Shown here piece after piece: positions 1 to 27,621 of a DNA stretch of 64,000 nt (position 1 is the stretch's first letter; each line of letters begins with the position of its first letter). The stretch is from Pontibacter sp. FD36. GTDB lineage: Bacteria; Bacteroidota; Bacteroidia; Cytophagales; Hymenobacteraceae. The notes beneath the pieces were generated by a model. That model saw nothing but the letters and a program-made list of their open reading frames with translations. It did not search any database and was not told the DNA's origin. A program made the position numbers and the translations under genes. The DNA lies in contig NZ_JADPMP010000012.1 of the NCBI RefSeq assembly GCF_015686655.1, forward strand, positions 1 through 64,000, written 5' to 3'.

Positions 1-25
1 TAACTTCTTCCAACTTAAAACCCAT
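1..25 (-). CDS. First codons of a further cassette gene, cut by window edge
   Basis: An ATG at 25-23 on the minus strand opens a frame that stays open to the window edge (eight codons). It lies 18 bases inside the crossover box of the site at 43-97, the same spacing that the two complete cassette genes show to their own boxes (13 and 14 bases). The call rests on this spacing alone; the product cannot be recognised. Confidence 0.4.
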
Positions 26-42
26 AACGCGTCGCACGGTCA

Positions 43-97
43 GTGCAACCACGGCTTCATTGTGGGCACTTCGTACCCAACGAAGCCTTAGTTGTAC
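43..97 (-). other. attC-like recombination site, downstream end of first complete cassette
   Basis: On the plus strand the outer boxes are GTGCAAC (43-49) and GTTGTAC (91-97), complementary at six of seven positions. Inside, GGCTTC (53-58) pairs with GAAGCC (82-87), and a further TGTGGG/CCCAAC pairing extends the stem. The site starts 12 bases after the stop codon of the gene at 109-783. The box at 91-97 is the complement of the box that opens the same cassette at 797-803, as expected for one mobile cassette. Both boxes depart from strict RYYYAAC/GTTRRRY at one base. Confidence 0.7.
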
Positions 98-108
98 CTT
101 GTTTTTTT

Positions 109-783
109 CTAAATCATTGACCCTACAAGCCTTTGCTTCAGTCCATCTTTGGTAAAAACCCATACGGCCTGATAAGCACCTGCCCCATCGCTGTTCCATT
201 GGTACACGATGTATGAATCACCATTTTTATAGACCTTGAAGGTGTTCGTGCATTCGTAGATGTCGCTGTAGAGAGGCGTGTTTATTTCAACCTTTTTCCC
301 TTCAACTACGGCGTTGACTCCTTTTACTTGTGTTCTTGGGAAGTTTCCGTCCGTTCCCCATACAGGTCTGCCTGCAATTGTTTTTACCCATTTCCCTTCA
401 TGCTTTTCAACAATTCGGTTATCGAGCTTAAAAGGCTCCAGAAGATATTCAAATTTAAAATCCGTTCCTTGGTAGGGCTGTAGCTTGTCTAGGGGTTGAA
501 GCCTTGATTTGTGTATGAATCCTTCGATGTAGTCGGGCTGCGTAGAACTGAAGGAGAAAGCATTAATAGGTATAAAGACAGGGACCCATTCGTCCGTATC
601 ATGTCCTTCTTCATAGTCATACCAGAAGGCTTCGTTGCTATATAGTTTGTGGATGATTTGCGACTGTCCGTTCGGCTTCTCCCTGACATTGGTGTACCCG
701 TCCTTATCTTGAATGATAGCTACCTGCGCTGTTGCCACAACAGTAATAAGAAACATTGCTATCAGTAATGTCAGGTTTTTCAT
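109..783 (-). CDS. Secreted protein with bacterial SH3-like domain (cassette gene)
   Basis: The 224-residue protein begins with a clear signal peptide ending near ATAQ (residue 19). Residues about 24-45 read DGYTNVREKPNGQSQIIHKL, the typical opening of an SH3b (SH3_3) domain, with the N-V-R-x-x-P core; such domains usually bind cell-wall or extracellular ligands. The rest, with many aromatic residues and a C-terminal W-x-F-T-K-D-G element, is not recognised. It is the cargo of one cassette: the crossover box ends 14 bases upstream of the ATG and an attC-like hairpin follows the stop. The coding sequence looks richer in A/T than the chromosomal genes to the right, in keeping with acquisition. 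Role unknown; the SH3 call is by motif only. Confidence 0.7.
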   Translation of the reverse strand: MKNLTLLIAMFLITVVATAQVAIIQDKDGYTNVREKPNGQSQIIHKLYSNEAFWYDYEEGHDTDEWVPVFIPINAFSFSSTQPDYIEGFIHKSRLQPLDKLQPYQGTDFKFEYLLEPFKLDNRIVEKHEGKWVKTIAGRPVWGTDGNFPRTQVKGVNAVVEGKKVEINTPLYSDIYECTNTFKVYKNGDSYIVYQWNSDGAGAYQAVWVFTKDGLKQRLVGSMI

Positions 784-796
784 GTTTTTAAATATG

Positions 797-864
797 GTAC
801 AACGTTATTCGTGCATAGTGTGGGCAAGGCGGCGCCGAAGCATAAACTATGAACTTTGTTGGGT
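797..864 (-). other. attC-like recombination site between two cassette genes
   Basis: Plus-strand outer boxes are GTACAAC (797-803) and GTTGGGT (858-864). The inner stem pairs GTT (804-806) with AAC (852-854) and CATAGT (814-819) with ACTATG (846-851), leaving a GC-rich loop. On the minus strand the left box ACCCAAC matches RYYYAAC exactly, while the right box GTTGTAC departs from GTTRRRY at one base. It lies 11 bases after the stop of the gene at 875-1381 and 14 bases before the start of the gene at 109-783. Confidence 0.78.
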
Positions 865-874
865 GAAGGTATTT

Positions 875-1381
875 TTATGCTTTGTATCTATCCAGAGAGT
901 TCCAATACTCACCCATCTGACCTCTTTCTTCCATTGCTTTTCTATCTATTTTTTCTGGAAGCATGTCTGGCTTTGCATTTTCCACAAAGGCTTTCAGATT
1001 TACAAGTGTTTTGAACCTCTTAAACACGAAATCCCATGTAGCGTAGTAGTTAAGCATCCAATTTAACTCTGGTTCGACCGCATTGCTGCCTATCTTCCCG
1101 TCTAAGATGGTAAATACCTTAATTTCTGCTCGTTCATCAATAGTATCAATACCGCTCAAATAATTGGGCTCAGTTAGTGCATACCATTGAATGAAGCGTG
1201 CTCTTTTTAATGCTTCAATTTCCCTTTCAGCCATTTCGGAATATTGCTGATGTATTTGCTTGTATGAGGCAAACACTTCTCCAAGATTCTTAGCATTTTC
1301 TTCCGTCTGCTTTTGGCTGTACAGCTCAGTTACGATACTGCAAAGGTCCTTTTCTCTTTGAGCTAATTGTTCTAAATTCAT
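875..1381 (-). CDS. Hypothetical protein (cassette gene)
   Basis: A 168-residue soluble protein without signal peptide or membrane segment. The start is taken as the ATG at 1381; a longer reading would need a TTG lying inside the attC box, which is unlikely. The N-terminal half (residues about 1-65) is charged and looks helical, with an E-K-D-L...E-L-Y-S-Q-K pattern and the run [19 protein letters not shown]; the C-terminal half has several Trp and Tyr residues. I do not recognise the family. Its place, directly between two attC-like sites with 11-13 base margins, is typical of integron cassette cargo, most of which is of unknown function. Confidence 0.75.
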
Positions 1382-1393
1382 AATGTTACTTGC

Positions 1394-1455
1394 ACCCAAC
1401 TAGCAGATAGCAGGAGTAGGTACTCCCACTATCTGCACTATGTGTGGAGTTGGAT
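1394..1455 (-). other. attC-like recombination site, best match of the three
   Basis: Plus-strand outer boxes ACCCAAC (1394-1400) and GTTGGAT (1449-1455) fit RYYYAAC and GTTRRRY exactly. The inner stem is strong: GCAGATAG (1403-1410) pairs with CTATCTGC (1429-1436), and GGAGTA (1413-1418) with TACTCC (1421-1426). It begins 15 bases after the mgsA stop and ends 13 bases before the next start codon. The cassette boundary that should match its ATCCAAC box (a GTTGGAT upstream of mgsA) is not visible. Confidence 0.82.
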
Positions 1456-24935: not shown

Positions 24936-26390
24936 TTATTTTCTTACCACTTTGATCATCGTGCCGGCTGGCACCTGGTCATTTAATTGCATGCCGTTTA
25001 GCACAGCCAACTCATTGTGGCGGGCGTCGGGCATGTTGTTGCTGCGCAAGGCCTGGGCCAGTGTAGTGGCTTTCGACACGGTTACAATGCTGATGCGCTC
25101 CGGCTGTCGGTTCAACTTATCAGGGTCTGACAATTCACGGAAGCTTTGCATACTGCTGCTGAATTGCTGAAAATATGTGTTGAAATTCTGAGCCGTCGTG
25201 ATTCCCATCAGGCTGTAAATATTGCCCCCATACTGTATAAAGTAGGTGAGCGTGCGCAAAGGCTGCTGTTGCTGTTGTTGCTGTTGCTGCGGAGCAGGAT
25301 CGGCTACTACCGCGAGGGCTGGTAGTCCGTTCACAGTTACTTCCTTGCTTTCCACGGGCTGCAAATTATAGTTCTGCAGTGTTTGTTGAGCAGCTTCCGT
25401 TGGGTTGTTGCCAGGAGCAAGGGTAAGTACCATCACGGCGCTTCCGTCCTTAGGGCCCATCTGTACCTGCTGCGGGGAATTCTGGTAGCCCCAGTTGGCT
25501 GGCATGTTGTACTGGAACTTCAGCACAGGATGATAGAATACGTTGTTCTCCACAAAGCCCTGTTTGGGGTCTTCTCCGTAGATAAGCCCGTCAATCATTT
25601 TGAGGTAATTGTTGCGGTTAACCTGGGCATTGGTCAGGTTCTGCTTCTTCTTTTCCTCTGCTGCCAGTTGGTGTACCGTGTTGTAACGGTCGCCCGGGTC
25701 AGGGTGAGAGGAGAGGAAGGATGGCAGCGCTTGTCCGCTTTCTTCCTGCTTGCGCTGCAGTGTGGTGAAGAAGTCGGCCATTTCAGAAGCGTCGTAGCCG
25801 ATCTTAGTCGAGTATTCCACACCCAGTCGGTCTGACTCACGCTCCGCATCACGACCGTACTTGAGCATCAATAGCCCGAGTCCCTGCGAAACCTCCTGGC
25901 CGTATTGCGCTACCGTAGGCGACAGGATCATGCCGAGCAGCAGGCCGCCCTGTGCGAGGATAGACTTACTTTGTTGCTGGGCGGAGTGGCGTGCAGTGAT
26001 ATGCCCGATCTCGTGACCAAGCACCCCCGCAAACTGCGCCTCGTTGTTGAAATGCGCCATGATGCCACGCGTGAAGTACACGTAGCCACCCGGCACAGCA
26101 AAGGCGTTGATTACGGGCGAGTCTACTATTTTGAATTCGTAGTTGAGGTTGCTGCGGTGGGATATTTTGGCCATTTGCTGGCCTTTCTCGCTGATGAAGC
26201 GCTGCAGAGCCGGGTCTTCGTATAGTCCAAACTCTGCTACTATTTGTGGGTCGGCTTCCTTCCCAAGGGCAATCTCCTGACTCTCTGACATGAACATCAC
26301 GTCTTTCTTACCCGTTACCGGGTTGGTCTGGCAGGAGCTGCTTATCAGGAACACGGATGCCAATAATCCGGTTATTATGTTCTTTCTCAT
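24936..26390 (-). CDS. M48-family metalloprotease lipoprotein
   Basis: A 484-residue periplasmic lipoprotein (lipobox ISSSC, Cys20; start at ATG 26390, since the longer frame needs TTG). The zinc motif is HEIGH at residues 126-130 within FAGVLGHEIGHITARH, with the third ligand in RDAERESDRLGVEY. It resembles the BepA/YfgC group, which clears misassembled outer-membrane proteins. After the protease domain comes a C-terminal region of about 200 residues (YNMPANWGYQNSPQQVQMGPKDG...) seen in Bacteroidota M48 proteins, ending in a LysM-like stretch (VSKATTLAQALRSNNM...VPAGTMIKVVRK). A run of nine Gln residues (coding bases about 25263-25290) links the parts and may be length-variable. Confidence 0.93.
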   Translation of the reverse strand: MRKNIITGLLASVFLISSSCQTNPVTGKKDVMFMSESQEIALGKEADPQIVAEFGLYEDPALQRFISEKGQQMAKISHRSNLNYEFKIVDSPVINAFAVPGGYVYFTRGIMAHFNNEAQFAGVLGHEIGHITARHSAQQQSKSILAQGGLLLGMILSPTVAQYGQEVSQGLGLLMLKYGRDAERESDRLGVEYSTKIGYDASEMADFFTTLQRKQEESGQALPSFLSSHPDPGDRYNTVHQLAAEEKKKQNLTNAQVNRNNYLKMIDGLIYGEDPKQGFVENNVFYHPVLKFQYNMPANWGYQNSPQQVQMGPKDGSAVMVLTLAPGNNPTEAAQQTLQNYNLQPVESKEVTVNGLPALAVVADPAPQQQQQQQQQPLRTLTYFIQYGGNIYSLMGITTAQNFNTYFQQFSSSMQSFRELSDPDKLNRQPERISIVTVSKATTLAQALRSNNMPDARHNELAVLNGMQLNDQVPAGTMIKVVRK

Positions 26391-26524
26391 TGTGGTATCT
26401 TTTTTAAGCCTCCCAATATCACCCAAATTCAGGTATATCGCAGAGACTGAATATGTAACAAGCAACGATAATACAATTTTTAAGTTGCAGCACGGGCCTG
26501 TTACGCATTTTTAGGGGTTATTTG

Positions 26525-27166
26525 TTAGGGTGTATAGTCCGGTATGTTTTGGCCCAAAATGATATCTCTTTCAGCTACCAGCAGTTCACCTTCCCGACCA
26601 AGGGTTATGATGCCGTTTCCGCCCCGGTCTTTGCGTGATGCCCGAACTTGCTGTGTGAGCAAAGAGTCGTCTTCAAACAGAAAATCATCCAGGTAGTATT
26701 CGTTTTTGTCTGGTTCTTTTACAGTAATGTGTATATGGGCCGGCTCTGAACGGGAAGGGTAGGTACCGGGTTTGATCGTATAAAACGTATACCTGCCATC
26801 AGTCCCGGTCTGGATCCAGCCGCGCAGGTAGCCGTGTCGCCTGGCCCAGCCTTTCTCGTCGCCTTTGGTTGGGTATATCCCCGTTTCATCAGTATGGTAA
26901 ATGTACAGGATGACATCCTGCGCCGGTGTTTTGCCATCGGGCAGGTAGACGGTACCGGTTACTTTGAGCTTGTCTTGTGCCTGAGGATGAAAGCCCGGGA
27001 GTGTATCAGTTGGAGAAAGCTGCTTGTCACCATACTCGTGTAGTGCCTCACAGCCTTCGCAAGGGCCTCCTACCTGGCGAGCAGGCTGTTGTCGGCCACG
27101 GTCGTCTTGTGCCTGGCAGCTGGTGCTCAGTACAAGTGTTAGCAATATTAGAATCAGCTTTCCCAT
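26525..27166 (-). CDS. Intradiol ring-cleavage dioxygenase-like lipoprotein
   Basis: A 213-residue lipoprotein (lipobox LSTSC, Cys17) of the protocatechuate 3,4-dioxygenase/catechol dioxygenase fold. The four expected iron ligands are present in order: Tyr98 (GIYPTKG), Tyr136 (KPGTYPSR), His144 and His146 (EPAHIHI). The N-terminus carries GPCEGCEALHEYGD, common in secreted members of this group. Cytosolic relatives open aromatic rings in the beta-ketoadipate pathway; exported forms have few assigned substrates, and no aromatic-catabolism genes lie nearby. The gene overlaps nothing and follows an acetyltransferase with 5 bases between them, so the two are probably cotranscribed. Confidence 0.88.
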   Translation of the reverse strand: MGKLILILLTLVLSTSCQAQDDRGRQQPARQVGGPCEGCEALHEYGDKQLSPTDTLPGFHPQAQDKLKVTGTVYLPDGKTPAQDVILYIYHTDETGIYPTKGDEKGWARRHGYLRGWIQTGTDGRYTFYTIKPGTYPSRSEPAHIHITVKEPDKNEYYLDDFLFEDDSLLTQQVRASRKDRGGNGIITLGREGELLVAERDIILGQNIPDYTP

Positions 27167-27171
27167 AGCAT

Positions 27172-27621
27172 CTATACCTTGTTACGCTCCATGTGTAAGA
27201 TTGGATAAGGTTTACCCATACTATCCTGCTCTGTGCGACCAATGATATGAAAACCCATGTGCTGGTAAAATGTGATGGCCTGTATATTCTGTTCATTTAC
27301 ATCTACCTGCTTTGCATTGCACTCTTCCACAGCATACTGCACCAGCATTTTACCAATGCCTTTGCCTCTATAATCCGGATGGAGAAACAGCATCTCGATT
27401 TTACCAGCTGCTATACCTATAAACCCGGTGATGCGGTTTTGAACGTCGCGCGTACAGGCTAGATCTACCGCTTGCAGATACTGGTTCAAGATCAGGGGCC
27501 TAAAATATCTAATATCCTCTTCCTGAAGAAAATGATGCGTCGCCCGCACGGAAGCCTCCCACAGATCAGTTAGCTCCAGATAATCCGATTGGGTAACAGC
27601 AGTGTCAATCTGAGAACGCAT
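27172..27621 (-). CDS. GNAT-family N-acetyltransferase
   Basis: A 149-residue acyl-CoA-dependent acetyltransferase. The acetyl-CoA pocket is MLFLHPDYRGKGIGKMLVQYAVEE (the R/Q-x-x-G-x-G/A signature as RGKGIG), followed by the beta-bulge strand and NIQAITFYQHMGFHIIGR near the C-terminus, as in YjaB/PhnO-like proteins. The start ATG at 27621 is consistent with the family. The substrate is not predictable. It is 5 bases upstream of the intradiol-dioxygenase-like gene on the same strand. Confidence 0.9.
   Translation of the reverse strand: MRSQIDTAVTQSDYLELTDLWEASVRATHHFLQEEDIRYFRPLILNQYLQAVDLACTRDVQNRITGFIGIAAGKIEMLFLHPDYRGKGIGKMLVQYAVEECNAKQVDVNEQNIQAITFYQHMGFHIIGRTEQDSMGKPYPILHMERNKV

Follow-up and report, generated by a model that had tools for sequence, protein, structure and literature searches.

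Does the short run of small genes at the edge of a Pontibacter contig belong to an integron, and if so, which recombinase serves it? The locus occupies the first bases of the window, by which we mean the whole 64,000-nucleotide stretch of Pontibacter sp. FD36 DNA that was analysed (contig C3, positions 1-64000, base 1 being the contig end). The NuoD protein of this genome points to the genus, with 92% identity to NuoD of an uncultured Pontibacter and 89-92% to those of five other genus members, compared with 77% for Adhaeribacter and 40% for the best match in the Rufibacter genome. An initial annotation, made from the letters alone, had described small co-oriented genes separated by three attC-like sites, with no integrase in view, and had proposed integron-type cassettes in a Cytophagales genome. 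That proposal is supported by the comparisons below, with substantial changes to its parts.

Cassettes behind mgsA

The chromosomal flank of the array is an mgsA-like gene (methylglyoxal synthase; 1470-1838), whose ORF scores 125.3 bits against PRK05234 (cut-off 84) and 113.3 bits against TIGR00160, the latter below that family's own cut-off. Read along the minus strand, on which this gene and all features of the array lie, it is followed by an orphan attI-like site (1401-1456) whose crossover would fall at the G/TT starting at 1400, by cassette A (804-1400; ORF 875-1381, an unknown 168-aa protein), by an attC that closes cassette A and includes the R' box opening the next cassette (797-864), and by cassette B (91-803; ORF 109-783). 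The small genes are thus co-oriented, as first described, and each cassette opens with the exact 7-mer complement of the left box of its own terminal site: GTTGGGT (1400-1394) complements the R'' box ACCCAAC (864-858) at 7/7 positions in cassette A, and GTTGTAC (803-797) likewise complements GTACAAC (97-91) in cassette B. The remainder of the cassette B attC is not in the window; directly against its R'' box lies one end of a repeated element of the IS91 family (1-93, minus strand), which runs off the contig.

Of the three sites originally taken for attC, one stands. Rfam returned no attC match, and a covariance model built exclusively from 46 attC sites of other genomes (R1; the false-link row L062:6625-6676 was removed from alignment A2 before A3) recognises the 797-864 site at 54.9 bits (E 1.8e-11) and has no match at either 1401-1456 or 1-95. 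The former is homologous to the attI found 3' of integrase stop codons in relatives; the latter is a single R'' box joined to 93-95 bp that recur identically at four contig ends and, in a relative, terminate an IS91-family element. The cargo assignment keeps little force, as the cassette B ORF, read as an exported SH3-like protein, reaches 22.9 bits against SH3_3 (cut-off 27) and the cassette A ORF has sub-threshold matches and none over cut-off in Pfam.

The locus resembles a CALIN, a cluster of attC lacking an integrase, in that its contig piece has attC and no integrase. It differs in that the assembly of the contig stops at a repeat and the system's integrase is present in the genome on contig C7, with an integrase remnant on contig C38. 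By the usual count of at least two attC with no integrase nearby, the window has one attC and one bare R'' box before it ends at the contig edge.

A repeat at the contig edge

The terminal 93-95 bp are identical at the ends of four contigs of this genome (C34, C7, C12 and C3), each time directly after an R''-like box, and are matched in 14 of 50 genus genomes, FD36 included, in some over the first 50-60 bp only. In one relative (G045, L271:2849-5028) the repeat adjoins a 254-aa tyrosine recombinase and an IS91-type transposase, the latter scoring 118.4 bits against Zn_Tnp_IS91 and 198.8 bits against Y2_Tnp, which places the element of that relative in the IS91 family; no IS91-type transposase was seen beside the repeat in the FD36 genome, where the contigs end at it. 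From the four contig ends and the IS91-type neighbours in the relative it follows that the assembly broke at an IS91-family element. Its position next to the R'' boxes of different cassettes suggests that the element targets attC-type sites, and it appears to insert against their R'' boxes. A group II intron, suspected from the GTGCG start of the repeat, was rejected: Rfam found none in five repeat loci and in L104, and the neighbours are IS91-type.

A Xer-type recombinase elsewhere in the genome

The absence of an integrase holds for the window and not for the genome, where a search located the integrase of the cassette system at the start of contig C7, together with one cassette and the same repeat. 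The enzyme is a 483-aa Xer-type tyrosine recombinase (C7:714-2162, minus strand) rather than an IntI, and a distance of 145 bp separates its stop codon from the first cassette (GTTAGCC...GGCTAAC), which lies on that strand too and is followed by the edge repeat. A second array begins on contig C38 (L104:12077-12300), where an attI and the C-terminal residues of a decayed integrase from this family precede it.

The N-terminal 209 residues of the C7 protein have no Pfam family match. Its core is Xer/XerA-like, the best family being NCBIfam NF040815 (XerA-type) at 209.9 bits against a cut-off of 220, which two Flavobacteriaceae relatives pass; the NCBI name of that family already includes 'integron integrase', which is a name and not a test. 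An AlphaFold2 model of a Rufibacter relative, computed from an alignment of 26 sequences (pLDDT 81, as against 34 for a single-sequence model), predicts two alpha/beta repeats at residues 6-72 and 108-180, followed by the core. In structure searches, which barely probed the N-terminal repeats, both IntI4 and Xer structures match this core, with Z 24.3 and rmsd 15.5 for XerA (PDB 5HXY) and Z 22.0 and rmsd 3.4 over 265 residues for IntI4 of Vibrio cholerae (PDB 2A3V). The repeats span about 200 residues in the Rufibacter (L161) and C7 proteins and are absent from a shorter, array-associated recombinase of genome G057.

Matches to the integrase at E <= 1e-200 occur in 35 of 49 genus genomes, one of which (G036) has a copy that lacks the first 103 residues and contains a stop; six other genomes hold integrase fragments only, and eight have nothing above the level of Xer/IS91-type recombinases. 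The gene is also plasmid-borne: it lies at 26113-27564 of the 73,841-base plasmid pls1 of Pontibacter kalidii (L305), and genus member G020 has it at 26116-27561. On pls1 and on plasmid 1 of Rufibacter tibetensis (L306), the integrase is followed by mostly co-oriented small genes. Both plasmids are typed as mobilizable and have IS110-family transposase genes among these small genes. A phage relative of the integrase is represented by one phage in two records and aligns at 34% over half of the protein.

Arrays and attC sites downstream of the integrase

Chains of cassettes linked by the 7-mer rule were compared with 20 first-order Markov shuffles per locus; the reverse strand, considered as a control, was dropped in favour of shuffles, the rule being nearly symmetric. 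Chains of 15, 19, 16, 14 and 13 were obtained for L071, L073, L075, L078 and L068, against a largest shuffled value of 8, and in several other integrase loci the chain does not exceed the shuffles. In 17 of 29 genus loci, 133-147 bp separate the integrase stop codon from the start of the best chain, which is on the integrase strand; in ten the chain starts elsewhere, and in two the contig is too short. At the junction between cassettes R'' and R' differ, the match being confined to a cassette's own R'' and its own start. Model R1 finds 239 attC in 26 integrase loci, its 46 model-building sites included, with 231 by our count in the integrase orientation and six of the eight exceptions in L069, as well as 15 attC in the Rufibacter locus and two in the Adhaeribacter locus, where 1.2 kb after the integrase was covered.

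At the level of whole genomes, R1 attC occur in all 50 members of the genus, with 14-86 sites each, versus three of 30 others of the order; FD36 itself has 29 sites on 10 of its 38 contigs. One of those three (G057, seven sites) encodes a 285-aa recombinase of the same type with an array, its chain of 9 comparing with shuffles of at most 7. Cross-genome comparison gave 89 matches involving 57 distinct cassettes (reciprocal matches count twice), of which 40 have their start, and 40 their end, no more than 10 bp from the cassette limits; 27 start more than 30 bp before the cassette, where a similar attC lies upstream, 16 start more than 100 bp inside it, and 35 end more than 30 bp short. The array on contig C10 (L103:6822-13654) comprises about ten attC and five toxin-antitoxin-type cassettes, which lie between R1 sites and encode Gp49/HTH, PemK/MazF-type, HigB/HTH, HepT/nucleotidyltransferase (HepT/MNT) and zeta-type products. 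This cargo resembles that of large sedentary integrons.

Short genes with hairpins between them are common in general, and one could suppose that ordinary small genes and intergenic hairpins, without any recombination system, produced the picture by chance. Such a supposition is already contradicted by the long exact 7-mer chains, the R1 match in the window, the 50/50 versus 3/30 distribution of attC and the cross-genome matches that end at cassette limits, and we regard it as scarcely credible.

The attC stem is supported by covariation: 86.4% of its cells are paired, versus 60.7% in shuffles and 23-34% after a slide by 1-3 columns, and 11 of 15 pairs show changes on both sides (183 such cells versus 71.7 shuffled); by one of the five covariation measures, pair types, the count of 25 falls below the shuffled mean of 30.2. 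When 229 sites, chosen by the 7-mer rule alone and possibly including a few false links, were folded in circle form, 194 had a stable top-strand fold, the other 35 being excluded as weak folds; among the 194, the bottom strand gave the more stable fold 187 times. These folds bear on how the sites would be used. An enzyme that is Xer-like and without the IntI insert might be expected to recombine attC and attI as double strands in the classical Xer way, with no folded single strands involved; the covarying long stems with unpaired spacers and the bias towards the bottom strand point instead to a folded single strand, and the junction boxes, which match between a cassette's own R'' and its start and differ across each junction, likewise argue against a double-stranded attC substrate, to which we assign a low probability.

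Similar arrays were sought behind recombinases beyond the family: among 80 named relatives, 47 were tried in the chain test, and 37 of these had DNA of sufficient length downstream of the integrase. The largest shuffled value is surpassed by at least 2 in five of them, namely L161 (Rufibacter, 14 versus 5), L179 (Algibacter, 9 versus 5), L172 (Seonamhaeicola, 7 versus 4, with attC of about 125 bp), L192 (6 versus 4) and L210 (5 versus 3), and the Flavobacteriaceae locus L163 combines a chain of 6 versus 5 with well-formed sites of 122-126 bp. Similar arrays therefore occur in Flavobacteriaceae; most of the 37 related recombinases have no visible array.

An attI-like site behind mgsA is followed by dissimilar cassettes

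Behind the integrase stop codon of relatives there is a conserved stretch with ..A|GTT as its end, where the first cassette starts, and the window site after mgsA matches one of two types of such integrase-adjacent attI. By this homology, the site after mgsA is a predicted orphan attI. An attI-type pattern with at most three mismatches is found in 22 of 50 genus genomes, a control pattern giving zero matches; its two occurrences in FD36 are one by the integrase on C7 and one orphan on contig C12.

The gene mgsA was found in 45 of the 50 genus genomes, and of 30 retrieved loci, 26 were inspected for the sequence that follows it. In 12 loci, those with an mgsA of at least 94% identity, an attI-like site with its GTT lies 50-72 bp after the gene, two of these sites being caught by the attI expression and the remaining ten recognised by alignment. 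R1 detects an attC within 1.5 kb downstream of mgsA in 11 of these 12 loci versus none of the 18 others, one of which (L262) has an R1 match on the opposite side of mgsA; genome G043 may hold a decayed site at this position. The exact 7-mer rule holds in ten of the 12, and a nucleotide comparison of those ten first cassettes finds no similar pair at E 1e-5. Across species, the locus thus has, instead of spacers conserved in distant relatives and model-silent sites, a site shared by 12 genomes, one window attC matched by R1 and first cassettes that are dissimilar in every delimited case.

The integrase lacks the insert of IntI enzymes

An additional domain around patch III is given as a defining mark of IntIs (excerpted text of PMC9668308), intI genes were selected by the additional domain or patch in earlier work (passages of PMC2426708), and the 20-residue I2 domain is described as accommodating the extrahelical bases of attC (passages of PMC4792948). 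Between two aligned stretches, the C7 integrase has 26 residues versus 69 in IntI4. The spacing from a lysine motif to HxLRH is 64 residues in 41 of 41 genus loci, which amount to 37 distinct genes because four loci repeat one gene, versus 106 in all 28 IntIs that have the motif among 30 IntI loci picked by TIGR02249. Among 80 named relatives, 71 have the motif and nine are without it; the spacing is 62-73 in 63 of them, 106 in six, and 121 and 131 in L182 and L196. It is 64-67 in ten recombinases from outside the genus that lie beside a chain or candidate cassette, two of which (L081 and L195) are counted on the basis of a single candidate cassette each.

The C7 integrase scores 207.5 bits against TIGR02249 (IntI; cut-off 265), all eight relatives scanned are also below the cut-off, and no protein of the FD36 genome passes it. 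In a quick tree of 77 rows, computed with no bootstrap, with three of 37 other recombinases and one of 21 IntIs absent and with a Xer outgroup that does not fall on one side of a branch, the 20 IntIs are set apart by one branch (SH-aLRT 100) with no member of the present integrase family among them; support for the fork that includes the Bacteroidia recombinases is 83, and rows associated with arrays do not form one clade.

These results weigh on the idea that the locus is an ordinary CALIN, in which a conventional IntI, working in trans or no longer present, left behind or moved the cassettes and the Xer-type recombinase is a bystander. Genomes that bear attC without the Xer-type integrase do exist, also within the genus (for example G043, G005 and G013), which is a counterpoint to our own reading, and a phylum sample of 395 genomes includes 105 with an IntI over the cut-off. 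Yet FD36 has no IntI over the cut-off, just one of the 108 sample genomes with an IntI match at 1e-50 belongs to its class (G116) and none to its order, and in 17 of 29 loci, as well as in Rufibacter and Adhaeribacter, the gene found at a constant spacing ahead of the first cassette is that of this recombinase and not an IntI. We consider a bystander role for the recombinase unlikely. Less likely still, and in our view very improbable, is that cassette movement is the work of the host XerCD, the linked recombinase having another job: XerCD are described as recombining the folded site of phage CTX (excerpts of PMC4792948), but the XerC- and XerD-like genes of FD36 lie elsewhere (C11 and C2) and it is the member of the integrase family that is linked to arrays.

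Discussion

We consider it likely that the window holds two integron-type cassettes at an orphan attI behind mgsA, as part of a chromosomal integron system whose I2-less Xer/XerA-type integrase is encoded elsewhere in the genome. In the mechanism we propose, the integrase would join the folded bottom strand of attC to double-stranded attI at G/TT; its own attI would lie about 140 bp after its stop codon, and attI copies elsewhere, at mgsA and on contig C12, would be loaded in trans. Cassette anatomy, attC covariation, attI homology, recombinase linkage, the missing insert and the dissimilar cassettes at an orthologous site are sequence-based observations; from them we infer that the Xer-type integrase would be the catalyst, a folded single strand its probable substrate, and the orphan attI putatively served in trans. 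The system is integron-like on the features testable by sequence and reads as an integron variant presumably driven by a recombinase without an I2 domain. We file it as a variant and not as a member of the IntI integrons because its integrase fails the feature that defines the classical enzyme.

Several observations count against this proposal. The I2 domain is held to accommodate extrahelical attC bases (as stated in passages of PMC4792948), which speaks against an I2-less enzyme in this role; many related recombinases are without a visible array, and the array-associated ones do not form one clade; and the best chain starts elsewhere in ten of 29 loci, with one covariation measure, that of pair types, below its shuffled mean.

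The closest known systems are the sedentary chromosomal integrons of the IntI4 type, with which the Pontibacter system shares an attI followed by tandem promoter-poor cassettes, R''/R' boxes in attC, G/TT junctions, co-oriented genes and toxin-antitoxin-type cassettes. It differs in an integrase without the insert (26 versus 69 residues; motif spacing 64 versus 106) and with two N-terminal repeats, encoded co-directionally with the cassettes and with its attI behind the stop codon, and in the orphan attI elsewhere. Classical intI genes are usually divergent. With XerA, XerC and XerD (PDB 5HXY, 4A8E and 1A0P) the enzyme has in common the core fold, the core length and the lack of an I2 insert, its differences being the linkage to attC arrays and the extra N-terminal repeats.

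Integrons as such have been reported from this phylum: Bacteroidota are listed among the phyla with integrons (excerpted text of PMC8618304), and an IntegronFinder 2.0 survey gives In0 and one complete integron, that of Salinibacter ruber M1, for Bacteroidetes. These are attI/attC systems likewise, and the present recombinase goes unmentioned in the excerpted parts of that survey (PMC9024848). A further paper that mentions Pontibacter concerns LexA, judging by its excerpts (PMC8565304). The literature searched holds no account that we recognised of a non-IntI integrase heading attC arrays in Bacteroidia; preprints and most subscription papers were outside its scope, and an earlier description is possible. 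Since IntegronFinder asks for an IntI-specific domain profile, according to passages of PMC9668308, it should therefore miss this Xer-type integrase, and I2-less integrases may explain why integron surveys see little in Bacteroidia.

Beyond the locus itself, we lean, with less assurance, towards a second and overlooked integron lineage, in which I2-less Xer/XerA-type enzymes would recombine folded attC in Hymenobacteraceae, Flavobacteriaceae and other Bacteroidia. Such a lineage could be an independent invention or a living pre-I2 form; it would have another route to strand choice and to avoiding a second strand exchange, perhaps through the N-terminal repeats in Hymenobacteraceae, and its orphan attI would be served in trans. 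The joint origin of I2 and attC has been called a chicken-and-egg paradox that functional intermediates could resolve (in the excerpted text of PMC4792948), and with attC arrays headed by I2-less recombinases the need for I2 would become directly testable. For its part, the putative orphan attI at mgsA, where the cassettes of the ten species in which they are delimited are dissimilar, would document naturally occurring cassette exchange away from the home array.
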